Origin: Deltaproteobacteria bacterium
GTDB lineage: Bacteria > Myxococcota_C > UBA6777
Direction of reading: 5' to 3'
DNA: 63,790 nt
NCBI GenBank assembly: GCA_002731275.1
Contig: PCBK01000105.1
Location: forward strand, 1-63,790
Program-made: the position numbers and the translations under genes
In this document: piece by piece, positions 4,032 to 63,023 of the stretch
How positions within the stretch are numbered: position 1 is the stretch's first letter
Layout: each line of letters begins with the position of its first letter
Notes under the pieces: generated by a model
What the model was told of the DNA's origin: nothing
Seen by the model: the letters and a program-made list of their open reading frames with translations, nothing else
Database searches by the model: none

Positions 4032-7000
4032 TCAAGAGAGAAATGGAAAGCTGAGTTGTCGAGGATCTTGTGATGTGGTTGGGTTGGGGGTAGGATTGTG
4101 AAGTGGTTGCGCAAGGGCTTTGACTTCGTTCTTTTCGGAGGTATTGCTCCACACATCCATCAATAATTGCTTCTTCTTCTCCATCCTCTTGAGAAAGTTT
4201 TTGGCGCGTCGAGGGTTCAGCTCGCCAATGTCTTCGGCCAACTCTCTCCAGACCTCCAAGACATCGTTGGCCATTTGTGTATCACCACACAAAAAGGCGT
4301 GACAATCGGGCTTTGAGAGCATAGCCCAGACCTCATCGGCGTGTTGACGCATGAGGTCTTGTACATAGGTCTTCTCATCACCGACTCGCGAATACGCCAC
4401 ATCAAGGCGACGCAGGAGACCACGCTCCAACCACTGCTCAAGACGCTCTCGGTAAAGAAACTCACCCTCATGGCGGCAACCAAAAAACAGCCACACAGGA
4501 CCAAAACCAGCCTCTTCGGGATCCTCCACACCGAGCGCTTCAAGTTGGGCTTCTCGCTCCTCCAGAAAACCGATCAATGGTGAGATGCCCGTCCCAGGTC
4601 CAACCATCAGCACAGGCGCAGAAGGATCTTTGGGAGGCCGAAACTCGCTCGTCCTCACAAAGACGCGAACCTCTTCACCTTCGGACAAGCCAGCGAGGTA
4701 ATGTGAACACAATCCAGGCCGCGTCGAACCATCGTTCATCTCGACCTGTACGACACCGACAGTCAAAGCCAATGTCTCAGGAGAGTAAAGAGGACTCGAT
4801 GAGATCGAATAAAAGCGCGGTTTTTGTCTCGGGAGCAATCGCAAAAGCTGGGAAAAATACAGCTTCGCAGAGGGAAAAGTCGTCAACAGATCGGCCAGAC
4901 CACGAAAATGATCGGCGAGATGTCGTCTCGCACCGCTTGTGGTTTGCTGCGTCAACGTCTCCAAAAGCGACGCGAGCGCTTGCTTCTCATGTTGATCCGT
5001 CGCGGCTTGGTGCATCGCTTTGAGCAAACCACGACACGCTCCATGAAGCGAGATATCCAGCTCCTCAGAGAGCACCTGCCTCGGCGTTGTTGGGAGCGGA
5101 AAGGAGATCTCATGTGAGTGCTCCATCGTGAAGTACGCGTCAGGATCGACCTCTACACATTCGCAGATCTGCTCAACAGCTTCCTGTGGATTGATTGGGT
5201 ATACGCCGAGGTGATCACCCGCTTCATAGGTGATCTCCGACACACTTGTGTCGAGCGCGATGGAGCGCGTCGAGCGTTTCTTCTCTGCAGAGGCTCCCAT
5301 CAATTCGAGATTGTGTACAACATGAGTTTGGACAAACGCCCCTTGTGGGACGGAGAACTCAGTCGGGGGCGTATCCAGGAACTCGACAAAGAAGGTCTTT
5401 TCAGCCGACTCAGTGTGCAGACCATCGATCTGAAGCACCTTCGCGATCCGCTCAGACCACGTGTTTGCGCGGCGCGCCTGATTGTTCACCTCGTCTGCTT
5501 TGTGCAGTGGGAGCAAACGACTTGCGCCTTTACGTTCGAGTAATTCGTTGAGATACATCCCAGCAGCGCAGTAGTTTTCATAGATGCTGCTGCCGATCCC
5601 CAAGACACCATACGCCAGGCCTTTGAGCAATTCGGAAGACTGTTGTTCCATCCACTGTGCAAACAGGCGGGCATTTTTAGGAAGCTCCCCATCCCCAAAG
5701 GTCGAAGAGATCACGAGCAACAGGTCAAGCCCTTTGAGATCAGAGGGTTTGCATTCGTCGAGGGCTTTGACCTCAGGTGAAAGGGTCTTCAGGCGCGTCG
5801 CTGTCTGGTAGGCATAATTCTCAGCCGTCCCAGACTCGGAACCAAAGAGGATCAGGATCTTAGAGTCTGAATGTGCGGCAATCTCCTCGCTCAGGACCTT
5901 CTGTGTCTCGGCATCGAGGATCTGCCAGCGATTGCACAACTCCCTGTACTGAGGCTCCAATAAGAACTCTCTCATCTCGTGATGAAAGACCTCTGTCACG
6001 CTCCCGCTCATCGGTGGAACGACCCAACTCCAACGTGCAGGACACTCACGACCGGCTTTCTTTTCGCGTCGATCGTGGATCAAAAACTGACGCGACGCGG
6101 TGTGATGGTCGACAAGGGTGATACGTTGCTGCTTAAAGGAGTGAAGGACCGCGACATTCAGCTCGACAAAGGCCCGATCTCGCCAAAGCGTTTGCTCAGA
6201 GGAGGTGTCCAGTTCGAGCAGCCTTGCGATGTCTTCGGCCTTGTTGTAGCGATGGGTGTCGAACAAGTCACGCGCGATCTCAGTCCCCATAAACCAACCA
6301 TTAAAAGGCACACAGGTGTACCGAATCCCACCCAGATCCAGTCCAATGTTCGCGACCGCAGGGACCGCACACCACTTGAGCTTCAGAGACGCAAACTCAG
6401 GAATATTTGGGTGCGCGAGATCGACCTCGACGACACTCTCTTCGGGTAGCTCGTAGAGTTTGACCTCATGGCCAGGAGAGTCGATCATCACAGGGAGCAG
6501 ATCAAACTCCCCAGGTTCACCGAGCGGTTCCCATCCGTACTCCATCGCCTTTTTGGTGTATTCGACGTTATCGGGATCACCAAGAATCGAGCCATCAGGA
6601 AGCTCGTACCCTGCATATCGCACGTATTGTGTATTCCACAGCCTTGGTCCCCAGCGTTCACATGGGGCTTTGGGTGCAAAGACAGTCATCACGATCTGAA
6701 TATTGCCACCACAAGTCGCCATCTCCAGATGTTCGAGGATCTCCTGGTACATCTCGTCGGGATCGGTGCATTCTCGACGGTCTCGGACGATCATATTGTT
6801 CCAGTTGACGCGACCGATACACTTGGCGGCGTTTCGCCACGCAACCTGTGCTCCATAAGACAATTCTTCTGTAGTGTGTGTATACGTCCCTGTATGTCGG
6901 AGCTCCTCAGCGATCTCATCGAGACGACGCTGAAGTTGCTGGACATCCCAATGACACTCTTGTGCCATCAGCTCCAACCACTCCTTGGCTTTCGAGAAGA

Positions 7001-7985
7001 TCTTTTGATTTCGACGAACAGGTAGACTCACGATGGTACAAACACGCCGCAGAAAAGTACGAAGCGCCTGTGCACCTACCGTTTGATGATCCTCCACGAC
7101 AAAGTCGACCAAAACATCGGGGAGCGCAGAGAAAGCACAGGCGCGGACATCCCACGCCGTAAACAGCTCGGAATCTTCGCGTAGAGAGGAGAACATACTC
7201 ACTTCATCGTCGAGCTGGTGCACAGCAGAATCGATAGTCGAAAACAGTGCCTCACCAAATGCTTCTGGATCCGATGAGGCAAAGAAATGATTCCATTCAG
7301 GGCGCTCGGCAACCAATTGATGTACCCATTCACTTCCAGGCGCAGTGTGAAGTCCCACTCCTTCTTCCCAGAGTCTTTTGGCTTCCTTCATCGAAGAGAG
7401 CGCCTCTTTGAGCGACACGATCGCGTCGAACATAGGGGCCATGATCTTCCGCGTAAAGAACCTGTAAAAGGCGGAACGTTTGCCTCGGCTTAACTCGATA
7501 GTTTCGTATTCTTCGAGGATAAAACTCGTGCGGAACGACCACAACCAGACGCGCCTAATCACGTCCCAGTGATGGGGCTTCACACCAATATCGGCGAACC
7601 ATCTGGCATACTCAGGGAGTGTTTTCCACTCAACACGAGGATCGACATGGACAGGACAGACAGCTTCTCGTCCGAGTTGCTCTGTGTGAGGCTGTAATTG
7701 ACGAATGGCGAGATCACACAGCCCAAAGAAGATCTCTTCGACCTCATCCCCTAAACTTTGAAGTGTCGCGAGCAGCTCGGGCTCTTCGATGTAGAGACGC
7801 TCGGCAAAGGCCTCCATCCCGATGTGTTTCCAGGCGACAAATTTATTCCAGGTGTCCTTCAGGATCACCTCGTCACTGGAGGACAGTGGAGCGACTTCGG
7901 CACACTCGGCCATCCAAGCTTCATCTTGTTGAAATTGGCTTTGGATCAGCGGGATGCGCATCCGGCCAGAAGATCGCGTAAGCAT
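4032..7985 (-). CDS. nos: Nitric oxide synthase with N-terminal globin-like region and C-terminal reductase
   Basis: Single chain of 1317 residues that should make NO and citrulline from L-Arg with NADPH. Residues ~40-190 look like a globin fold (helix-like LKDTWNKFVAWKH, then IGVKPHHWDVIRRVW and a final H-helix-like KRSAFYRFFTRKI); residues ~240-325 may be a second degenerate one. The NOS oxygenase domain spans ~335-680: heme-thiolate Cys in WRNAAKCIGR (~389), substrate Glu in NGWFMGTEI (~569), pterin region WSWVVPPMSGSVTEVFHHEM. The reductase follows: FMN flavodoxin (LFGSESGTAENYA, STFGDGELPKNA, ~710-855), then FAD/NADPH ferredoxin-reductase type domain (PRFYSISSSP, GPGTGISPLIGFL). The linker between oxygenase and FMN domain is short, with no visible calmodulin-binding helix. 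Start ATG at 7985 follows AGGAGG. The globin proximal His position (4 before GVKP) seems to be Phe, so heme binding there is doubtful. Confidence 0.95.
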   Translation of the reverse strand: MLTRSSGRMRIPLIQSQFQQDEAWMAECAEVAPLSSSDEVILKDTWNKFVAWKHIGMEAFAERLYIEEPELLATLQSLGDEVEEIFFGLCDLAIRQLQPHTEQLGREAVCPVHVDPRVEWKTLPEYARWFADIGVKPHHWDVIRRVWLWSFRTSFILEEYETIELSRGKRSAFYRFFTRKIMAPMFDAIVSLKEALSSMKEAKRLWEEGVGLHTAPGSEWVHQLVAERPEWNHFFASSDPEAFGEALFSTIDSAVHQLDDEVSMFSSLREDSELFTAWDVRACAFSALPDVLVDFVVEDHQTVGAQALRTFLRRVCTIVSLPVRRNQKIFSKAKEWLELMAQECHWDVQQLQRRLDEIAEELRHTGTYTHTTEELSYGAQVAWRNAAKCIGRVNWNNMIVRDRRECTDPDEMYQEILEHLEMATCGGNIQIVMTVFAPKAPCERWGPRLWNTQYVRYAGYELPDGSILGDPDNVEYTKKAMEYGWEPLGEPGEFDLLPVMIDSPGHEVKLYELPEESVVEVDLAHPNIPEFASLKLKWCAVPAVANIGLDLGGIRYTCVPFNGWFMGTEIARDLFDTHRYNKAEDIARLLELDTSSEQTLWRDRAFVELNVAVLHSFKQQRITLVDHHTASRQFLIHDRREKKAGRECPARWSWVVPPMSGSVTEVFHHEMREFLLEPQYRELCNRWQILDAETQKVLSEEIAAHSDSKILILFGSESGTAENYAYQTATRLKTLSPEVKALDECKPSDLKGLDLLLVISSTFGDGELPKNARLFAQWMEQQSSELLKGLAYGVLGIGSSIYENYCAAGMYLNELLERKGASRLLPLHKADEVNNQARRANTWSERIAKVLQIDGLHTESAEKTFFVEFLDTPPTEFSVPQGAFVQTHVVHNLELMGASAEKKRSTRSIALDTSVSEITYEAGDHLGVYPINPQEAVEQICECVEVDPDAYFTMEHSHEISFPLPTTPRQVLSEELDISLHGACRGLLKAMHQAATDQHEKQALASLLETLTQQTTSGARRHLADHFRGLADLLTTFPSAKLYFSQLLRLLPRQKPRFYSISSSPLYSPETLALTVGVVQVEMNDGSTRPGLCSHYLAGLSEGEEVRVFVRTSEFRPPKDPSAPVLMVGPGTGISPLIGFLEEREAQLEALGVEDPEEAGFGPVWLFFGCRHEGEFLYRERLEQWLERGLLRRLDVAYSRVGDEKTYVQDLMRQHADEVWAMLSKPDCHAFLCGDTQMANDVLEVWRELAEDIGELNPRRAKNFLKRMEKKKQLLMDVWSNTSEKNEVKALAQPLHNPTPNPTTSQDPRQLSFPFLS

Positions 7986-52720: not shown

Positions 52721-55700
52721 ATGGAAGTCCAGATCCAACTGTATATCCGTGAACACCATAATAGACACTACACCATCGAAGTCATCGGAGATAGCAGTAT
52801 TCAACTCTATGCAACCGATCTCGAACAAGGGCGCGAAGATCTCTACCTCGTCCTCAATGACAAACTCGAACGTCTACACCCCGGACACCAAGGACGATAC
52901 GCCGCCTCCAAAAACCAAACACATGAAGTCATCGACATCAAAGACTTCCTCAAAGTCGAAGGGCGGCTTGGGCTCGAAACATTCCCTACCAAAGTCTCCG
53001 TTGTGATCACACAAGACCGCAAATGGCAACGCCTCTGGTTCCCACGATGGAATTGTCACTACTGGATCCCCAAAGACGCAAATCTCGAAGAGTCCGTCGG
53101 CCTATTTGTCCACAGACATCTGCTCAAAAAAATGTCCATCCACGAAAAACTCCAACACCGATACGAGCGAAAAGAGTGGGTGGAAGACCTGATCGTCGAA
53201 GCTGAACCCCCCGCCCTCGAAGCCTTCCTCGATGGATATCTGGAGAAAGAATACCTCCCCTACCAACTCGACGAAAAAAAGAAGAAAAAAGACAAAAAAG
53301 ACAAAGACGACGAAGAAGAAGAAGAGAAGAAAAAGAAAAAACGCCCCCCAACCCCCACACTCAAAAAAATCGCCAGCCCCATCCACGAGCTCGCCAAAGA
53401 AAATGAACTCGAACACGCATACGGCCGCGATAAAGAACTGACAGACCTCCTCCAGATGCTCTCCGCACCAGGAGGTAATGCCCTCGTCCTCGTCGGAAAA
53501 TCAGGCGTCGGCAAGACCACCATCCTTAACGAACTCGCATACAAAGTCCGCAGCAAGGACCAACACGAGTCCATGCGGACACGCCCCATCTGGTTTGTCG
53601 ACGCGAGCCGACTCGTCGCCGGAGAAGGCTTTTTTGGAGACTGGCAACGCCAATGTCTCGACGTCATCCAAGAGTGTATCAACGCAGAAGTCATCTGGTA
53701 TGTCGGCAACCTCCTCCCACTCCTCGACGCAGGGAAGAGCATCGGCTCCGATCAAAACGTCTCCTTCCTCCTCCGTCCCTACCTCGCCGGAAATCGACTC
53801 ACTATCATCGGTGAATGCACCCCACAAGCCTGGTCACAGCTCGAATTAAAGGACATCGGTTTCGCCAGACACTTCACGCCATATCATATCGAAGATCCAA
53901 GCGAAAAAGAGATCGGCGACATCCTACGACTCGTCTCCAAAGATCTCCACGAAGAAAAAGACGTCCAATTCGACAAAGGCGCACAGCTCGCCGTCCTCGA
54001 ATTCAGTCGCCGCTATAACAGCGAAAACAGTCTGCTCGGTAACGCCCTGCACTTCCTACGAAGGATCGCCGACGAAGCCGAAATCAACGAGAAGACAAAG
54101 ATCGCACGCCCCGACGTCGTACAACAATTCTGCTCCGAGACAGGGCTCCCCGAATTTCTCGTGCGAGATGATCTTCCTCTCGACCCAGAGTCGATCTGGA
54201 TGACATTTCAAAAGCGCCTGATTGGCCAGGAAGAAGCTGTCCGGCGCATGACCGACCTTGTCGCGATGATCAAATCAGGTCTCTCCGATCTCAACCGCCC
54301 TCTCGGCTCATTCTTATTTGTCGGCCCCACTGGAGTCGGAAAGACCGAGATGGCCAAGACCCTGACCAAGTATCTCTTTGGTCGAGAAGATCGTCTGATC
54401 CGCTTCGATATGAGTGAGTTTGTCAGCCCAGACAGTATCCATCGCTTCCTCGGTGACGGACAAACAGAAGGTAAACTCGTCTCACAGATCAGGCGCACAC
54501 CCTTCGCCGTCCTACTACTCGACGAGATCGAGAAAGCCCACCCGGCTGTCTTCGATGTCCTCTTGCAAGTCCTTGGAGAGGCGAGACTCTCCGACGAATC
54601 AGGACGTAGCGCGGACTTTCGCAACGCCGTCGTCTTGATGACCTCCAACCTCGGCGTCAGCACAATGCGTCGCCAGCTCGGCTTCGGCGATGAGCAGCTC
54701 GGCAAATTCCGCGAACACTTTATCGCCGAAGCCGAACAATTCTTCCGCCCGGAGTTCTTCAACCGCATCGACTACATCATCCCCTTCTTCCCACTTGAAC
54801 GCGAAGCTATCGAACGTATCACCCACAGAGAGATCGACAAGTTTTTGCGGCGCGAGGGCGTCAGACAACGCAACATCTCCTTGGACCTTCACGAAGATCT
54901 ACCTGATTGGCTCGCAGAGCGCGGCGTCGATCCTCGCTACGGTGCGCGCCCTCTCAAGCGCGTCATCGAGAGCCAACTCAGCGCCCCACTCGCTCGTCAC
55001 CTCTCAGGCCTCGCCACAGAACAACACCACACAGTCCAAGCACAACCCACACCGTCCGCCCTCTCCTTCGTCAATCTCGCCTCCTCCCAACGACGCAAAG
55101 AGAAAGGACAGGCCCGCACCGTCCTCCAACGAACGCTTTATGAGATTGGGATCTTCCGCTTTCAGGCGAAAAACTGGCGACAAACCAGCCACTACAGAGA
55201 GCTCGTGCAAGAGGTCAAACTCTTCGACCGGCTCAGCCAAGACAAAAACTTCTGGCTCGACAAGCGCATGGCCGAAGACAGAATGAATGACATCAAACAG
55301 GCCCGTACATTCCTCGAAGAATTTGAAGGTCTTATCGAACAAATCGCCTCTATCGAAGATCTCTGTTATGAGCTCTACTACGATCGCAACCTCGAACCAC
55401 TCGAAATGATCGAACACGATATCAAACAGATCGAAGAGTCCTTGATCAAACTCGAGATGGAGCTGTTCGCACAGCGCTTCAAAAATCCCCACAGAGCCAC
55501 GATCTACTACGCAGAAGACCGTAACTCAACGAAGATTGTCCGTGGCTGGGTCAAGATGTATCTCGATATTGCCGAGAAAAATGGCTGGAAAGTCAGACTC
55601 TATTCGACCCGACGCCTGGAAGATGCACAGCTCAAAGACGCTGGTATCGACACCAAAGCGCTGATCACAGAGCAAGACCTGAAAAAGCAAAAGAGCAAAG

Positions 55701-56329
55701 AGCGACAGCTACAAAAAGAAGCGCGCCAAAAAGACGAGAGCGAAGAAAAGCCCCTCAAACCCGTCAAACAGACAAAAGAGAAGAAGTTCGACACCACACT
55801 CGAACGCCTGCGTCAGGTCTGGCGATATGTCGGCTCATTCCATCCAGAGATAGAAAAGCCCGACAAAGCCAAACAAGATCTGCTCAGTGAACTGTACACC
55901 CTCGGTGAAGACGCACAACCTAAAGCCATGGTCTTCGAAGGCCCCTTCGTCGCCTGCCTGCTCTTTGGTGAAACTGGCGCACACCAACACATCTCCGACA
56001 ACGCGTACCAAATTCGCGCCTTGTACAAAGATCAAAACCCGGCCCCGTTCGACATCTTCGCGCATCCATTGACCGAAGAACAGGCCAAAGAGTTCCCAAC
56101 ACTCCAAACCACAGAGCTGATCCACCCATTTGATCTGGATGACGCGCTCCCATCAGAGCGACGACGTAGCATCCACGAAGGCAAAAAACTCGTCAAAGAC
56201 TTTCACCTGGATCTCCAACATGTCCTCGAACCGAGAGTCTTTCAAAGCTACCTCAAGTTTATGCGCGCCAACATCTACTACACCGTTTTTGGTCCCGACG
56301 GTATCGAATGGTTTAACAGAGAAGGCTAA
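52721..56329 (+). CDS. Double-AAA+ ClpA/B-like protein with PCRF-like C-terminus (copy 1)
   Basis: 1202 residues. Residues 1-180 are a beta-rich domain unlike Clp_N; ~183-215 is a Lys/Glu/Asp linker. D1 (~225-470): P-loop GKSGVGKT at 259; pore-loop equivalent GEGFFGDWQRQ; the Walker B place reads VIWYVGNLL, so Asp-Glu is lost. D2 (~495-760): GPTGVGKT at 535, LLLDEIEKAHP, Arg finger in FFNRID, sensor-2 GARPLKR, and LGFG before FFRPEFFNR. The Clp GYVG pore loop is replaced by the shorter LGDGQTEGKL. Residues ~925-1100 resemble the release-factor PCRF domain (IYYAEDRNSTKIVRGWVKMYLDIAEKNGWKV, then EGPFVACLLFGETGAHQH) with a K/E-rich insert; there is no GGQ. First gene of a three-gene operon. A TACAAT lies at 52610. 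Confidence 0.9.
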   Translation: MEVQIQLYIREHHNRHYTIEVIGDSSIQLYATDLEQGREDLYLVLNDKLERLHPGHQGRYAASKNQTHEVIDIKDFLKVEGRLGLETFPTKVSVVITQDRKWQRLWFPRWNCHYWIPKDANLEESVGLFVHRHLLKKMSIHEKLQHRYERKEWVEDLIVEAEPPALEAFLDGYLEKEYLPYQLDEKKKKKDKKDKDDEEEEEKKKKKRPPTPTLKKIASPIHELAKENELEHAYGRDKELTDLLQMLSAPGGNALVLVGKSGVGKTTILNELAYKVRSKDQHESMRTRPIWFVDASRLVAGEGFFGDWQRQCLDVIQECINAEVIWYVGNLLPLLDAGKSIGSDQNVSFLLRPYLAGNRLTIIGECTPQAWSQLELKDIGFARHFTPYHIEDPSEKEIGDILRLVSKDLHEEKDVQFDKGAQLAVLEFSRRYNSENSLLGNALHFLRRIADEAEINEKTKIARPDVVQQFCSETGLPEFLVRDDLPLDPESIWMTFQKRLIGQEEAVRRMTDLVAMIKSGLSDLNRPLGSFLFVGPTGVGKTEMAKTLTKYLFGREDRLIRFDMSEFVSPDSIHRFLGDGQTEGKLVSQIRRTPFAVLLLDEIEKAHPAVFDVLLQVLGEARLSDESGRSADFRNAVVLMTSNLGVSTMRRQLGFGDEQLGKFREHFIAEAEQFFRPEFFNRIDYIIPFFPLEREAIERITHREIDKFLRREGVRQRNISLDLHEDLPDWLAERGVDPRYGARPLKRVIESQLSAPLARHLSGLATEQHHTVQAQPTPSALSFVNLASSQRRKEKGQARTVLQRTLYEIGIFRFQAKNWRQTSHYRELVQEVKLFDRLSQDKNFWLDKRMAEDRMNDIKQARTFLEEFEGLIEQIASIEDLCYELYYDRNLEPLEMIEHDIKQIEESLIKLEMELFAQRFKNPHRATIYYAEDRNSTKIVRGWVKMYLDIAEKNGWKVRLYSTRRLEDAQLKDAGIDTKALITEQDLKKQKSKERQLQKEARQKDESEEKPLKPVKQTKEKKFDTTLERLRQVWRYVGSFHPEIEKPDKAKQDLLSELYTLGEDAQPKAMVFEGPFVACLLFGETGAHQHISDNAYQIRALYKDQNPAPFDIFAHPLTEEQAKEFPTLQTTELIHPFDLDDALPSERRRSIHEGKKLVKDFHLDLQHVLEPRVFQSYLKFMRANIYYTVFGPDGIEWFNREG

Positions 56330-56387
56330 TCATGTGTGAACACCTCATCATACAAATCGCCCACATCCTCGTGACAAAGGAATGCCG

Positions 56388-59300
56388 ATGAATCTCAAAG
56401 TCCCCCTTCTCGTGTCCGTAGACAACCGCGAAGTCTACGAACTCTTTTTGCCGGGCATTTCAGAGAAACGCTTCAAGGGTGTCAGCCTCGCAGAGCTTCG
56501 CGATGACGCAGCGTTGCACCTTATGGAGATCATCCCAAAAGAACCGGCCTCACGGATGAGTCTCTATCAATTTTGCCCACACATCGAGCTGCGCAAGGTC
56601 AAGATCACCGTCGAGTTGACCACGCGCTTCTTTCCAGAGTGGATGTATGGGGATACCAACCAACACCCCAACCAACGCAAAAAGAAAGAGACCTGGACAG
56701 GGCGCCTCTCCGTCGTCGTCACACGTTGGCCCAAAGATGGTTTCTACACTGCATACGTCCCACAGCTCGGTCTAGAGAGCTTTGCTGTCGCCAAAACAGC
56801 CTACCTCGAAGAAGGGCTGATCCGATTCGTCAAAGCGTGGGCCAAAAAGAACTACACCACCAATCTCGACCCATATATTTGTCGCTCATATGAGTATCTC
56901 GACATCCTCGACGTGGACACGGAACTTCCCACGATCTTGCCAAGCCGTCCCAAGAAGAAGAAGAAGAAAAAGAAGAAAAAAAACAAAGACAAGAGCAAAG
57001 GCAAGAAGAAGGACAAATCCAAAAAGCAAAAACGCCGCCTGATCCCTCCTGATACACTCAGAAAAGTTGGCGTCAACCTGACCCACAGAGCGATCGACGG
57101 CAGACTCACAGAAGCATTTGGACGGGACGCACTCGTCGACCATATCTGCAAACAACTGCAACGAGAAGGCGCGGCCATCTTACTCGTCGGACCCTCTGGT
57201 GTTGGAAAAAGTGCCATCATCCACGAAGTCGTCCGTCGCTTCGCAGGACAACAACAAAGCCTCAAAGAACGCAGCGACTTTTGGGAGGTCAACGGCAACC
57301 GTCTGATCGCAGGGATGAAGTTTGTCGGTGCCTGGGAACAACGGGTCCAAATGATGGTCCACGAATTACACACCCGACAAGATGTCCTCTACGTCGACGA
57401 CCTGCCCTCACTCGTCTATACAGGACGTTCCTCTCACTCGGACACAAACGTCGCCGAATACATCGAACCACACATCTCCCGCGGAGAGCTTCGTATTATC
57501 GGTGAGTGCACACCCGAACGGCTCGAAGCCACACGTGAAGAATCCCCGAGCTTCTTCGCACGTTTTCGCGTCATCCAGATCCCCGAGCTTGATGAGAAAC
57601 AAACGCTCATGGTCCTCGTACATGCCATGAGAAGAATGGAAGCACTCGAACATCTGACGATCCAACCAGAAGCCCTTGAGTCCATCCTCTCACTGACACG
57701 TCGCTTCCTCGTACATCACTGTTATCCAGGCAAAGCCATCAACCTACTCATGCAGCTCCTCTCCGATTACAGAAACATCGAGCGGGATCGATTCAAGAGA
57801 CGCCTGATCACACGTGAACACCTGATCGAGTTCTTCTCTCGACAGAGTGGACTGCCTAGCTTTATTCTCTGGGAACAACAAGCGCGCCCACACAAAGAGA
57901 TCAAGAGTTACTTCGCCCGTAGGATCATCGGTCAAGACGACGCCGTCGAGACTGTCACGGACGTCGTCACCATCCTTCAGCAAGGACTGAACAACCCCGA
58001 ACGACCACTCGCGACCTTGATGTTTGTCGGCCCCACAGGTGTCGGAAAGACCGAGACCGCGAAGGCACTCGCGGAGTATCTGTTTGGAAGCGCGGAGCGG
58101 CTGATCCGCTTCGATATGAGCGAATTTATGCACCCCTCTGCGGTCACACGCTTGATCGGTGATCGCTTTCAGCCTGAAGGCGATCTGACCAGACAGGTCC
58201 AACAGCAACCCTTCTCCGTGATCTTGCTCGATGAGGTCGAGAAGGCCCACCCAAGTATCTTCGACGCCTTCCTTCAGGTGCTCGGAGAAGGACGGTTGAC
58301 CAACGCCGCAGGCCACACCATCGACTTTTGCAACACAGTCGTGATCATGACCTCTAACCTCGGCGTCAAAGAGGCCAACCGTTCACTTGGATTCGCCACA
58401 CAGGACGAAAGTCAAGCCCAACTGCACTACAGAAAAGCCGCAGAGTCCTTCTTTCGACCGGAGTTCTTTAACCGCATCGATCGCATCGTCGCCTTCTCCA
58501 AGCTGACACGGGCGTCGATCTCTCCGCTCGTCAAAAGGCTCCTGCAACAGCTACTCAATCGCCGTGGTCTTCGACACTCACATGTCCTCGTCCAGGTCGA
58601 TCCAGAGCTCGTCGAGCTGCTGATCGATCAAGGCTTCGACCCACAATACGGCGCGCGCTCGATGAAGCGGCTGCTCGAACAGCGACTGACTGTCCCACTC
58701 GCGCAACACCTCGTCTCCCACTCAGTCCACCAAACGACTGTGATCCAACTGTTTCGCAAAAAAGACAACATCGGTATGGAGCTTTGGGGACTCGAAGAGA
58801 TCATCCTAAAACCCTTCGAGCATCTGAAAAAAGCACGCCGCTGGAATGAACTAAAGCTGCGCTTTGAGCAACTCAAGCACGCTCTACAAGGGATGGAAAA
58901 GAGCGATGAGTTGAAACAAATCGTACAAGAACGCTCCGAACTCCTCGCCACCTTCAACGCTGACGAGGACAACACCGACCCACCAGAACGTCTGCTCTCT
59001 CTTTCCGAGCTGCTCGGTGGACAGATGCAGCTCAGAAAGTTCATAGAACAGTTTGAAGAGGACTACATGGTGGACTATCACTTCATCGAAACATCCGATC
59101 ATTGGTATAGTCAAAGTAAGCTCTGGGGCCCACAGAAGAACACAGCCTTCTCCCAAGAGCCCATCGAGCTGGACAGACAGCGATTGTTCCCAGAAGCCCA
59201 AGAAAAAATCTTCCAGGCCAGGATCGATTTTGCGTCTCTTCTCTACCGAACGAAAGCCATCCAAGAGGACAACCTTCATCCTGCGATCCTCCGCTTTCTT

Positions 59301-59966
59301 CCGGCCTCTGAAAGTCAAAGTACACAGAGATGGTCCATCCAGCTCGCGCAACAATTTGCGAGCAGTTGGAGCGATTGGGCGACGATCAAATACTTCGCCA
59401 GAAAACAAGACAAGTGGGAGGAGATCGAATCCAAAGAGTGGAGTGAATGGTACGAGCAGCTGCGCATGGGCGAAGAAGAAGTGCTCCAATTCTTCCCAGA
59501 ATCTCGCATGCTCGAAGTGCAAGGTGTGGCGATCACACTTCACGGACCGGGTATGCGTCCCCTTCTAGAGGACGAGCTGGGTTTTTACCAACACAACGCA
59601 CAAGAAGGGCCCGACCTCATCTGTGATCTCGTCCGTATCGAGGAAGTCAGCGATTCATTGCGCCTGCCTCTCGAACAACTTCATCATCTCGACGAAGCAT
59701 TCGAGGCATACAGAGAGACCAGACGCAAAGGCCTCGACGCTGAGAACCCAAGACCTCAGTTACCGCTAATTCGCGTGTTCAACGATGGGGCATGTGAAGA
59801 TCAAGAGACCGGAGAGCTGATCGACCATTGGAAGCTCGATAAAGACCTTCACAAGATCGCGATGCTACGGATCTTCGCTCGTTTTCTCGCACATACAGAG
59901 CAGACCGCGCAACCGATTGATGATGTTCATGACGAACCAACTTCAGATGACACACAAGAAGCGTAA
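56388..59966 (+). CDS. Double-AAA+ ClpA/B-like protein with PCRF-like C-terminus (copy 2)
   Basis: 1192 residues from the ATG at 56388 (AAAGGA six bases before; an ATG at 56382 abuts it). N-terminal region of ~185 residues includes GFYTAYVPQLGLESFAVAKTA, somewhat HicB-like, followed by a polylysine linker (PKKKKKKKKKK, ~188-225). D1: GPSGVGKS at ~269, pore-like AGMKFVGAWEQR, Walker B LYVDDLPSL (Asp instead of Glu). D2: GPTGVGKTETAK at ~549, ILLDEVEKAHP, FFNRIDRIV, GARSMKRLL, and SLGFATQDE before FFRPEFF. Pore loop IGDRFQPEGDL lacks GYVG. A long charged region leads to a diverged PCRF-like end (~965-1100: LRFLPASESQSTQRWSIQLAQQFASSWSDW, later LHGPGMRPLLEDELGFYQH). 58 bases after copy 1 and 9 before copy 3. 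Confidence 0.9.
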   Translation: MNLKVPLLVSVDNREVYELFLPGISEKRFKGVSLAELRDDAALHLMEIIPKEPASRMSLYQFCPHIELRKVKITVELTTRFFPEWMYGDTNQHPNQRKKKETWTGRLSVVVTRWPKDGFYTAYVPQLGLESFAVAKTAYLEEGLIRFVKAWAKKNYTTNLDPYICRSYEYLDILDVDTELPTILPSRPKKKKKKKKKKNKDKSKGKKKDKSKKQKRRLIPPDTLRKVGVNLTHRAIDGRLTEAFGRDALVDHICKQLQREGAAILLVGPSGVGKSAIIHEVVRRFAGQQQSLKERSDFWEVNGNRLIAGMKFVGAWEQRVQMMVHELHTRQDVLYVDDLPSLVYTGRSSHSDTNVAEYIEPHISRGELRIIGECTPERLEATREESPSFFARFRVIQIPELDEKQTLMVLVHAMRRMEALEHLTIQPEALESILSLTRRFLVHHCYPGKAINLLMQLLSDYRNIERDRFKRRLITREHLIEFFSRQSGLPSFILWEQQARPHKEIKSYFARRIIGQDDAVETVTDVVTILQQGLNNPERPLATLMFVGPTGVGKTETAKALAEYLFGSAERLIRFDMSEFMHPSAVTRLIGDRFQPEGDLTRQVQQQPFSVILLDEVEKAHPSIFDAFLQVLGEGRLTNAAGHTIDFCNTVVIMTSNLGVKEANRSLGFATQDESQAQLHYRKAAESFFRPEFFNRIDRIVAFSKLTRASISPLVKRLLQQLLNRRGLRHSHVLVQVDPELVELLIDQGFDPQYGARSMKRLLEQRLTVPLAQHLVSHSVHQTTVIQLFRKKDNIGMELWGLEEIILKPFEHLKKARRWNELKLRFEQLKHALQGMEKSDELKQIVQERSELLATFNADEDNTDPPERLLSLSELLGGQMQLRKFIEQFEEDYMVDYHFIETSDHWYSQSKLWGPQKNTAFSQEPIELDRQRLFPEAQEKIFQARIDFASLLYRTKAIQEDNLHPAILRFLPASESQSTQRWSIQLAQQFASSWSDWATIKYFARKQDKWEEIESKEWSEWYEQLRMGEEEVLQFFPESRMLEVQGVAITLHGPGMRPLLEDELGFYQHNAQEGPDLICDLVRIEEVSDSLRLPLEQLHHLDEAFEAYRETRRKGLDAENPRPQLPLIRVFNDGACEDQETGELIDHWKLDKDLHKIAMLRIFARFLAHTEQTAQPIDDVHDEPTSDDTQEA

Positions 59967-59975
59967 GGGAAACTG

Positions 59976-62900
59976 ATGCAAGAACGATTTCACCTATTTG
60001 TGCGCTACCACCACAACAACTGGCACACAGTCTCGCTCCTCACACACCCTCAGTACGCTGTGTATGGTCCAAAGTTGCCACCGTTACGGACGGAGCTGCA
60101 CAACATCGTCGCCCGTGAATTGGCGACGCGCCATCTCATCGTTTCGGAACCTGTCTTTTTCGAGGATATCAAACAACGCTCCCTCAAAATAGAGGTGAAA
60201 GCCGTCCAAAATAACCGCCTGATCATCGTCCCCATGCGGTTCACCCTGCTCTTTCGCCCCATCGACAAAGAGCGCGAGCTCTACGAAGTCCGCATACCAA
60301 GACTCAACACAGTCTACAACATCGTCGGTGAGGAGAACATCTCCTCTTGGGCAGAGGAACTGATCCGCGGACACTTTCACCTCAAACCTGTCTCTTCGCT
60401 CCTCAAATATGAGTACGAGAAGAACGAGTATATCGAACCGCTTCAGGTCGTGTACCACGGTCCAGGACGTTACAAGGTCAAAAAGGAGATCGATATCTTC
60501 AAGCTGTGGGAGCAAAGCAGAACGCTCACGGAGCTTGAGAGTGTAGGGATTGATCTCAGTGAAGAGGCTGACAAAGGCCGGCTTCAACGTGCGTACTTTC
60601 GCGAACAGGAGACCGAACAGTTCCTCAACGCCTTAAGCTCCAAACAGAGCCGCAGTGTCCTGCTCATCGGTTCTTCTGGTGTTGGGAAGACTGCGTTGCT
60701 ACACGAAGTCGTCAACAGGATCGTACAAAAAGACCGCATCCCCGAACGGCTCGAATACACACCCGTCTGGCATGTCTCAGGTGGACGCTTCATCGCAGGT
60801 ATGAAGTATCTCGGCGAGTGGCAAGAGCGCGCGCTCGCGATCGTGCAACAGGTCCGCGCAGAGGTCGGCATACTTTATGTCGACAGTTTGCTTGAACTGT
60901 TGATGGCAGGTTCCGTGAAGAGCGGTCTGAATGTCGCACAATTTTTGATCCCCTATATCCAAAGTGGCGAATTGACCATCGTCGCAGAAGCCACACCTGA
61001 CGCGCTGACGCTCGCACAACGACTGAACGCTCCCTTTGTCCAGGCGCTTCGCAAGCTGCCGCTGAAGGGATTGCCGCTCGAAAAGAACTTTCAACTGCTC
61101 GAACGTTCCGCGAACAAGTTGGGCAAAGAGCACAAGGTCAAATTCACGAAGCCTTCCATCTCAAGAGCTCTGGAGATCCTCTCGCGATTTGGTGATGCCG
61201 ATGCCTTGCCCGGTTCGGGTCTGTCTCTGATCGAACAAATGGCCCGCCTGTCTCCCCCAACCCAAAAACGCAAGACGCTCCATCCTATCGACGCGATTCG
61301 TGCATTCTCTCGTGCGAGTGGTTTTCCAGAAGACCTGATCAACCCGGACAAACTCCTCGATATCGAAGCTGTGAAGATGTTCTTTTTGGATCGTGTGATT
61401 GGCCAGGACCACGCGATGTCGTTGTTGACCAATCTCGTGATGTTGATCAAGGCCAGCCTCAACGACCCACAAAAACCGCTCGGTTCATTCCTTTTTATGG
61501 GTCCAACAGGTGTTGGGAAGACAGAGTCGGCGCTCACCCTCGCGGAGTATTTGTTTAACGATCGCAAGCGCGTCATTCGTATTGATATGAGCGAGTACTC
61601 TTACCCGGGGAGCGCGCAACGACTTGTTGGGAGCCAGCACACAGAAGGTGATCTGACCAAAAAAGTCCGCGAGACGCCCTTTTGTATCATCTTGCTTGAC
61701 GAGGTTGAGAAGGCCGACCCAAGTGTCTTCGACATACTCTTGCAGGTCCTTGGAGAAGGTCGCTTGACAGATGCCACGGGACAAACCGTTCGTTTTACAC
61801 ATACGATTGTGATCATGACCTCCAACTTAGGTGCGACGAGGAAACCATCTCTTGGCTTTTCGCAGCCGACGACGAAGGACATCGATCGACACTATATGGA
61901 CGCGGCGGAAAAGTACTTCCGCCCGGAGTTTGTCAACCGTATCGACTTTATCGTGCCTTTCCACGATCTCAACAAGGCCTCACTCAAGGCAATCGCCAAG
62001 AGGATGTTGGATTCGGCCTTGCAACGAGAGGGATTTGTGCGTCGTCAGCTCGAAGTGGAATACGAAGAGCCAGTGCTCGATTTCCTGATGAAGGTGGGCT
62101 TTGATCCCAAGTACGGTGCACGTCCGATGAAGCGGGCTGTGGATCAACATATATTGATCCCTCTCTCACGGCGACTGATCAGACGTAGTGGTGCTTCGGA
62201 GAACAAGTACAATCTATATATCCACCAACGGCGTGTTGCGCTCGTATCGGCACAACCGATGAAGGGGCTCCCTCCTCTTCCAGCTGAAGACATCACCCTC
62301 ACACACGATCATTTGTGGTCTCGTTATCTCAACCAGCATCGACAACGTATTGAAGAGTGGGAAGAGACACAATTGTATCGGGAGCTTCGGGAGACACAAG
62401 CACAACAGGTGGAGGTCTTTGCGAGCATCAAGCAACAATTGCAAGAGCTTGAATTGCGTTCCAAACGACAGCCTTCTAAATTGTCGCAAGAGGAACAGAA
62501 GGTGCTCCTCGAAGAAGCCCAAGCGCTCGACAACAAAACGTACTCTTTGGAGTGGGAGTTGTGTCTTGAGAGTCTGCCTTCGAGTGAACAATTCTCATTC
62601 TTTTTGGAGGTGAGGAGTTTGCACCCAACAGGTCTACGCTTTATCGATACGTTGATTCAGCAGTATCGTTCGTGGTTGCCTTCGCATGGGATAGACATGG
62701 TTGTCGAAGAGGAAGAGTATCGCACAAATTTAACGTTCAATGGCACACATGCGTCGTTGCTGTTAAAGCAGGAATTAGGCAATCACAGGCTGCAATTGGA
62801 GGATGATGAGTACATCGACATCTGGGCCTACATCACGCCTCCTCACAATGATGAAGGACTTCCATCACTTCGTGAGTACAGTCAGGAGCCAGGTAATATA

Positions 62901-63023
62901 TGGGATCCCGAGACAGAATATAATGTGACACACCCCCCCACAGAGCTTCACACGCACCTTGAGCAATTTGTGCTCAGGCGTATGTGTCTTCAGTTACGAG
63001 AACATCTCAAGCCAACCAGTTGA
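59976..63023 (+). CDS. Double-AAA+ ClpA/B-like protein with PCRF-like C-terminus (copy 3)
   Basis: 1015 residues; ATG behind AAGGGA. The N-terminal ~150 residues resemble those of copies 1 and 2 (HLFVRYHHNNWHTVSLL against QLYIREHHNRHYTIEVI in copy 1) but there is no polylysine linker. D1: GSSGVGKT at ~230, AGMKYLGEWQER (canonical KYxGEFExR-like pore loop), Walker B LYVDSLLEL (Ser replaces Glu). D2: GPTGVGKTESAL at ~508, ILLDEVEKADP, FVNRIDFIV, GARPMKRAV, SLGFSQPTTKD. The PCRF-like domain is the clearest of the three (~872-970): FFLEVRSLHPTGLRFIDTLIQQYRSWLPSHGIDMVVE, then FNGTHASLLLKQELGNHRLQ, lining up with FLEVRAGTGGDEA...MYxRYAExxxWxxE and GxxxYxxLKxESGxHRVQ of RF1. No GGQ. Confidence 0.9.
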   Translation: MQERFHLFVRYHHNNWHTVSLLTHPQYAVYGPKLPPLRTELHNIVARELATRHLIVSEPVFFEDIKQRSLKIEVKAVQNNRLIIVPMRFTLLFRPIDKERELYEVRIPRLNTVYNIVGEENISSWAEELIRGHFHLKPVSSLLKYEYEKNEYIEPLQVVYHGPGRYKVKKEIDIFKLWEQSRTLTELESVGIDLSEEADKGRLQRAYFREQETEQFLNALSSKQSRSVLLIGSSGVGKTALLHEVVNRIVQKDRIPERLEYTPVWHVSGGRFIAGMKYLGEWQERALAIVQQVRAEVGILYVDSLLELLMAGSVKSGLNVAQFLIPYIQSGELTIVAEATPDALTLAQRLNAPFVQALRKLPLKGLPLEKNFQLLERSANKLGKEHKVKFTKPSISRALEILSRFGDADALPGSGLSLIEQMARLSPPTQKRKTLHPIDAIRAFSRASGFPEDLINPDKLLDIEAVKMFFLDRVIGQDHAMSLLTNLVMLIKASLNDPQKPLGSFLFMGPTGVGKTESALTLAEYLFNDRKRVIRIDMSEYSYPGSAQRLVGSQHTEGDLTKKVRETPFCIILLDEVEKADPSVFDILLQVLGEGRLTDATGQTVRFTHTIVIMTSNLGATRKPSLGFSQPTTKDIDRHYMDAAEKYFRPEFVNRIDFIVPFHDLNKASLKAIAKRMLDSALQREGFVRRQLEVEYEEPVLDFLMKVGFDPKYGARPMKRAVDQHILIPLSRRLIRRSGASENKYNLYIHQRRVALVSAQPMKGLPPLPAEDITLTHDHLWSRYLNQHRQRIEEWEETQLYRELRETQAQQVEVFASIKQQLQELELRSKRQPSKLSQEEQKVLLEEAQALDNKTYSLEWELCLESLPSSEQFSFFLEVRSLHPTGLRFIDTLIQQYRSWLPSHGIDMVVEEEEYRTNLTFNGTHASLLLKQELGNHRLQLEDDEYIDIWAYITPPHNDEGLPSLREYSQEPGNIWDPETEYNVTHPPTELHTHLEQFVLRRMCLQLREHLKPTS

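Follow-up and report, generated by a model that had tools for sequence, protein, structure and literature searches.

The closest described relatives of the proteins considered here are the Hsp100 ATPases. ClpA and ClpC combine two AAA+ modules (D1 and D2) with a D2-small domain, have no long middle domain of the ClpB type and carry an [LIVM]GF loop at the ClpP-docking position, while ClpB/Hsp104 disaggregases possess a middle coiled-coil and ClpB has no ClpP-type loop. Peptide chain release factor 2 (RF2 or PrfB) binds the ribosome at its A site rather than at the exit tunnel. A release-factor-fold protein working with an AAA+ unfoldase is known from eukaryotic ribosome-associated quality control, in which Vms1 acts together with Cdc48 (PMC6514570), but this is an analogy only: Vms1 is a separate polypeptide from its ATPase and a member of the aeRF1 superfamily, which is unrelated. 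In the open literature, to which our search was confined, there is no description of a Clp–release factor fusion or of the three-gene arrangement presented below, a survey of release factors nowhere mentioning ClpA, ClpB or PCRF (PMC6514570) and a survey of conflict systems nowhere mentioning ‘release factor’ (PMC7159879). Within that literature, the initial annotation was thus right that no function had been described for such an arrangement.

The window, i.e. the whole stretch of DNA that was analysed, is a contig of 63,790 nucleotides (PCBK01000105.1) from a deltaproteobacterial assembly (GCA_002731275.1), at the end of which lie three consecutive ORFs on the + strand, hereafter the trio. 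The sizes originally given for copies 1 and 3 (1202 and 1015 aa) and the 9-bp gap between copies 2 and 3 stand, whereas the 1192 aa given for copy 2 and the 58-bp gap upstream of it apply only if translation starts at the second Met (base 56388), the full ORF being 1194 aa long and 52 bp away from copy 1. The features of the locus are as follows.

52721..56329, + strand: copy 1 (T1), 1202 aa, with an N-terminal domain, a degenerate D1, a D2 predicted to be active and an RF2-derived C-terminal extension
52721..53230, + strand: copy 1 N-terminal domain, approximately residues 1-170 (AlphaFold model, pLDDT 83.6 overall, and alignment)
53393..54172, + strand: copy 1 D1 AAA+ module, Walker A present, GN in place of the Walker B acidic pair
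54173..55030, + strand: copy 1 D2 AAA+ module and D2-small, Walker A/B, Arg finger and sensor 2 intact, GYVG pore loop deleted
54677-54685, + strand: copy 1 D2 LGF loop (sequence motif)
55166..56326, + strand: copy 1 RF2-derived region, residues 816-1202 (TIGR00020 and hhalign)
56382..59966, + strand: copy 2 (T2), 1194 aa, layout as copy 1
57087..57875, + strand: copy 2 D1 AAA+ module, Walker B Glu replaced by Asp
57876..58751, + strand: copy 2 D2 AAA+ module, catalytic motifs intact, LGF loop at 58386-58394
58752..59963, + strand: copy 2 C-terminal extension, homologue of the copy 1 extension (hhalign, joint alignment)
59976..63023, + strand: copy 3 (T3), 1015 aa, layout as copies 1 and 2
60543..61340, + strand: copy 3 D1 AAA+ module, Walker B reading YVDS with the catalytic Glu lost, YLGEWQ pore loop present
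61341..62195, + strand: copy 3 D2 AAA+ module, catalytic motifs intact, LGF loop at 61851-61859
62373..63020, + strand: copy 3 RF2-derived extension, FFLEVRS...LLLKQELGNHRLQ (PF03462 and hhalign)

As originally proposed, the three proteins are ClpA/B-like double-AAA+ paralogues: Pfam and NCBIfam find two AAA+ modules and a D2-small domain in each, and most of their length matches nothing else. ClpA and ClpB are the best NCBIfam matches, but the scores (342-386 bits against an equivalog cut-off of 993 for ClpA, 362-395 bits against 1232 for ClpB) reach only one quarter to two fifths of these cut-offs. Fold searches with two-domain models returned lists filled by Clp and other AAA+ proteins, the copy 1 D1 model matching ClpC D1 (Z 29.2, 268 residues aligned, rmsd 2.3) and its D2 model ClpC D2 (Z 28.6, 296 aligned, rmsd 3.3), with ClpC/ClpB D2 matched at Z 28. 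The trio shares with ClpA/ClpC the overall layout and the ClpP-type loop, LGF in all three window copies, and the window's genome has two full-length ClpP matches. In D2, the sequences lie at a similar distance from ClpB/Hsp104 (NCBIfam TIGR03346), but the trio has no middle coiled-coil and does have the ClpP-type loop. Unlike ClpA/ClpC, however, the trio has no ClpN domain, no Walker B Glu in D1 and no GYVG pore loop in D2, and it does have an RF2-derived C-terminal extension and an obligate-looking set of three genes. These motif changes are general. In a survey of 50 T1, T2 and T3 sequences from several phyla, together with the single-gene forms discussed below, D1 keeps its Walker A but no copy retains the catalytic Glu of Walker B, the aromatic D1 pore loop is retained in most trio sequences, and D2 preserves Walker A, Walker B, arginine finger and sensor 2 while about 5-6 residues are deleted at its GYVG pore loop.

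The N-terminal domain of copy 1 was modelled as two beta-beta-beta-alpha units, which we think, by eye, are HicB-like; it had no reported match in a Pfam search and is not ClpN, in agreement with its first description as a non-Clp domain. Charged low-complexity linkers, rich in Lys/Glu/Asp in copy 1 (53276-53341) and made of poly-Lys in copy 2 (56952-56981), separate the N-domain from D1, and the basic linker of copy 2 could bind RNA.

For the C-terminus of these proteins, similarity to release factors had been claimed from the outset. The NCBIfam prfB model (TIGR00020) matches residues 816-979 of copy 1 (E=3e-8), and the Pfam PCRF model (PF03462, cut-off 24 bits) gives 14.4 bits for copy 1 and 17.6 bits for copy 3 (62352-62795), both below the cut-off. 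Copy 1 orthologues in two related genomes exceed it (31.9 and 31.4 bits), as do two distant relatives, a 940-aa double-AAA+ protein of genome G032 (57.5 bits) and another in G055 (24.6 bits). When related genomes supplied 19 RF2 and about 25 RF1 proteins for profile comparison by hhalign, RF2 was matched at 99.1% (E 8e-19) by the copy 1 family, at 97.6% by copy 1 alone, at 96.1% (E 3.5e-9) by the copy 3 extension with two orthologues and at 99.6% (E 1.3e-24) by the single-gene relatives, RF1 being weaker in every comparison. The copy 2 extension does not match RF2 directly (7%), but is homologous over its whole length to that of copy 1 (95.1%, E 3e-8) and is thus RF2-derived by transitivity. 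That the similarity is an artefact of coiled-coil or composition, a notion that could draw on the sub-threshold Pfam scores in the window, is hardly credible since reversed or column-shuffled release factor profiles used as decoys never exceeded 7.3%, relatives do pass the PF03462 cut-off, and the match extends over the beta-rich core and domain 4. Similarly, joining of a prfB fragment through mis-assembly could be ruled out because the fusion recurs in independent genomes.

Joint alignments reveal how much of RF2 has been kept. The domain-1 helices with their RF2-type xFWDD motif are in register, the domain-2 core is retained (MYxxWAxxRG and GxGAxGxLxxExGxHR), albeit with a charged insert in copy 1, and domain 4 (DxRTG...VLxGxLDxFI) is found in relatives. 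In the structural model, helices and strands follow one another as in RF2, but the fold lists were filled by AAA+ matches. Unlike RF2, the extensions are fused to an AAA+ motor and show a gap both where the SPF-type stop-codon tripeptide and where the catalytic GGQ are expected, although SPF/SPY and GGQ are each present in 19/19 control RF2s. The entire GGQ domain is missing from the window copies, the string GGQ in copy 2 lying away from the RF2 position, so that the reported absence of a peptidyl-hydrolase domain was correct. The label ‘PCRF-like’, on the other hand, was right as to homology and too narrow as to origin: because relatives also have the C-terminal domain 4, the donor was RF2 rather than a bare PCRF domain. 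We conclude from sequence comparison that the C-terminal extensions derive from RF2, in copy 2 by way of copy 1 only. Purifying selection acts on them (dN/dS, from a pair of close relatives, is 0.08 for copy 1, 0.19 for copy 3 and 0.16 for part of copy 2), but they are the least conserved part of the proteins (34-38% vs 68-75% in D2), and most T3 orthologues (about 760 aa) have none. Elsewhere in the window's genome, a 220-aa protein with an intact GGQ (L040:3454-4116) resembles peptide chain release factor H by eye. A related genome (G003; L089, minus strand, about 6460-7480) has a separate RF2-like frame scoring 43.7 bits with PCRF, with a degenerate GGQ loop and an in-frame TGA; it may be a pseudogene or else a frameshifted, free-standing RF2 that lacks GGQ.

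Scanning named genome contigs with the copy 3 D1 region revealed at least 15 loci with a complete triplet arranged long-long-short, in Myxococcus xanthus AM003, M. vastator, M. dinghuensis, other Myxococcaceae, Myxococcota MAGs, Planctomycetota, Verrucomicrobia and a Holophagae MAG. Judging from these sequences, intact operons of the trio occur in Myxococcota, Planctomycetota, Verrucomicrobiota and Acidobacteriota, the genes staying together and in order across phyla. Trio members occur in 5/5 genomes of the window's own family, some on broken contigs, and Myxococcota MAG.451 is a relative of the window's genome. A D1 profile search of 386 diverse genomes also matched ordinary ClpB/ClpC and did not discriminate the trio. 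A search for recurrent flanking genes found none conserved between phyla, only local synteny within Myxococcus, and the unit is therefore self-contained. Copy 3-like genes of 740-860 aa with no visible partners were seen in Planctomycetota, Verrucomicrobia, Myxococcales and Parabeggiatoa/Thiotrichaceae (L167, L168, L172, L176, L179, L180, L183, L184 and L187). Another double-AAA+ family of unusual build, whose members are about 1170 aa long, have an extended N-terminal part and carry the D1 Walker A near residue 590, is present in 4/5 genomes of the window's family and in G057 (L049:6179-9676, L050, L051, L052 and L048).

There is also a single-gene Clp-RF2 form, with a full-length RF2 scaffold devoid of stop-codon tripeptide and GGQ catalytic loop. 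Presence in the phyla of G055 and G029 is only sporadic. In that of G032, profile searching recovered the single-gene form from roughly 80 genomes, almost all belonging to one family with genomes of 4-14 Mb. We infer that this family is Myxococcaceae, most members of which would carry the single-gene form, because two of its genomes (G195 and G183) have triplet loci that share 95-96% identity with named Myxococcus records. T1 and T2 each form a clade in the AAA+ tree and are divided into the same two groups, T3 consists of two groups whose joining is unsupported, and the single-gene forms lie near the base. The simplest reading of these sequences is that the RF2 fusion would have come first, followed by triplication and then by loss of the extension in most T3. 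The single-gene relative is often near genes that by eye are RNase J, YajQ-like and RimO-like (several genomes; L134, L136 and L138), with the RNase J-like gene beginning 6 bp past it in L138, a neighbourhood that might lend slight support to a role at stalled ribosomes.

Chloramphenicol is a ribosome-stalling antibiotic. In a published transcriptome study of M. xanthus DK1622, three genes for Clp ATPases described as ‘one operon’, MXAN_4823/4824/4825, were up by log2 3.57/2.67/2.61 (up to 12-fold) after 8 h of chloramphenicol and by 1.47/2.17/1.92 after 36 h, with MXAN_4832 also up by 1.19 (PMC6617876). In M. xanthus AM003, a ClpC-like gene lies six genes downstream of the triplet, as would fit MXAN_4832, hence MXAN_4823-4825 is likely to be the trio on the basis of synteny and annotation rather than of the DK1622 sequence itself. 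Together with the RF2 scaffold, this induction, linked to the trio by synteny, supports a role at stalled ribosomes, but chloramphenicol also raises general protein-stress genes, as the rise of MXAN_4832 illustrates, which counts against a ribosome-specific reading.

These data outline a model, to which we assign a probability of roughly 45%, in which the three proteins would each supply one type of subunit to a single Hsp100-class AAA+ ring, which catalytically dead RF2 domains would bring to stalled or stressed ribosomes. A hetero-oligomer of T1, T2 and T3, already suggested in the initial annotation, is probable, given that linkage and gene order are preserved across phyla and that the splits of copies 1 and 2 mirror each other. 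The RF2-like domains would dock in the empty A site or at the GTPase centre, with neither codon reading nor peptide release, while in the mixed rings D1 would grip and D2 hydrolyse ATP. The ring might then strip or remodel a target bound there, be it a factor that has jammed, a product that is truncated or has aggregated, or the ribosome itself, and possibly pass it to ClpP. However, by analogy with ClpC-type rings, the extension would be on the D2 side, which is the ClpP side, and RF2 anchoring and ClpP docking may be mutually exclusive. Since RF2 docks in the A site, we favour remodelling at the A site or of stalled ribosomes over nascent-chain recognition, by analogy with RF2 itself. The boldest version of this model, an ATP-driven ribosome-remodelling or rescue machine that would be the first Hsp100 hetero-ring to be guided by a dead release factor to the A site, grip and hydrolysis being split between its two rings, is plausible, though the odds lean somewhat against it.

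The absence of the extension from most T3 orthologues counts against recruitment to the ribosome and, with the loss of both SPF and GGQ, after which the RF2-derived domain may no longer touch the ribosome, fits a different scenario, in which this domain has been repurposed for protein interaction or ring organization and the trio acts as a general stress unfoldase or disaggregase that makes no contact with the ribosome. The low conservation of the extension and the chloramphenicol induction of an ordinary ClpC-like gene point the same way. Purifying selection on the extension and an RF2 scaffold kept in register, domain 4 included, across distant single-gene relatives speak against this scenario, which we regard as a serious one, somewhat less likely than recruitment to the ribosome.

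The closer similarity to RF2 than to RF1 in every comparison would also be expected of an RF2 decoy that binds release-factor partners (e.g. PrmC, RF3 or ArfA-type) and modulates either termination or ribosome rescue, while its AAA+ motor remodels RF2 complexes. This is unlikely, however, the GGQ Gln targeted by PrmC being absent and the flank search having shown no genomic link to prfB, prmC or arfA. It is just as improbable that the trio is a mobile conflict system, anti-phage or inter-bacterial, despite its patchy presence as a self-contained three-gene unit with no fixed neighbours and the type I restriction methyltransferase-like gene (by eye) that lies 9 bp after copy 3 in G002 (L041:17288-19000). 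PADLOC models match the generic AAA+ core only, no effector domain is present, and the single-gene relative occurs in most members of one family, as a housekeeping gene would.

As far as can be told, the parts of the trio are of known kinds, and its architecture and the conservation of three subunits are new. If the RF2-like domains still find the ribosome, the trio would represent a translation-linked bacterial Hsp100 pathway, which would be an analogue of eukaryotic ribosome quality control with Cdc48, independently built from RF2. Even if they do not bind it, a conserved three-subunit Hsp100 in which, to judge from its motifs, one ring would be hydrolysis-dead and the other gripless would divide labour in a way unusual for this class. 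The likely presence of the operon in M. xanthus (MXAN_4823-4825), a genetic model, makes its function approachable there.
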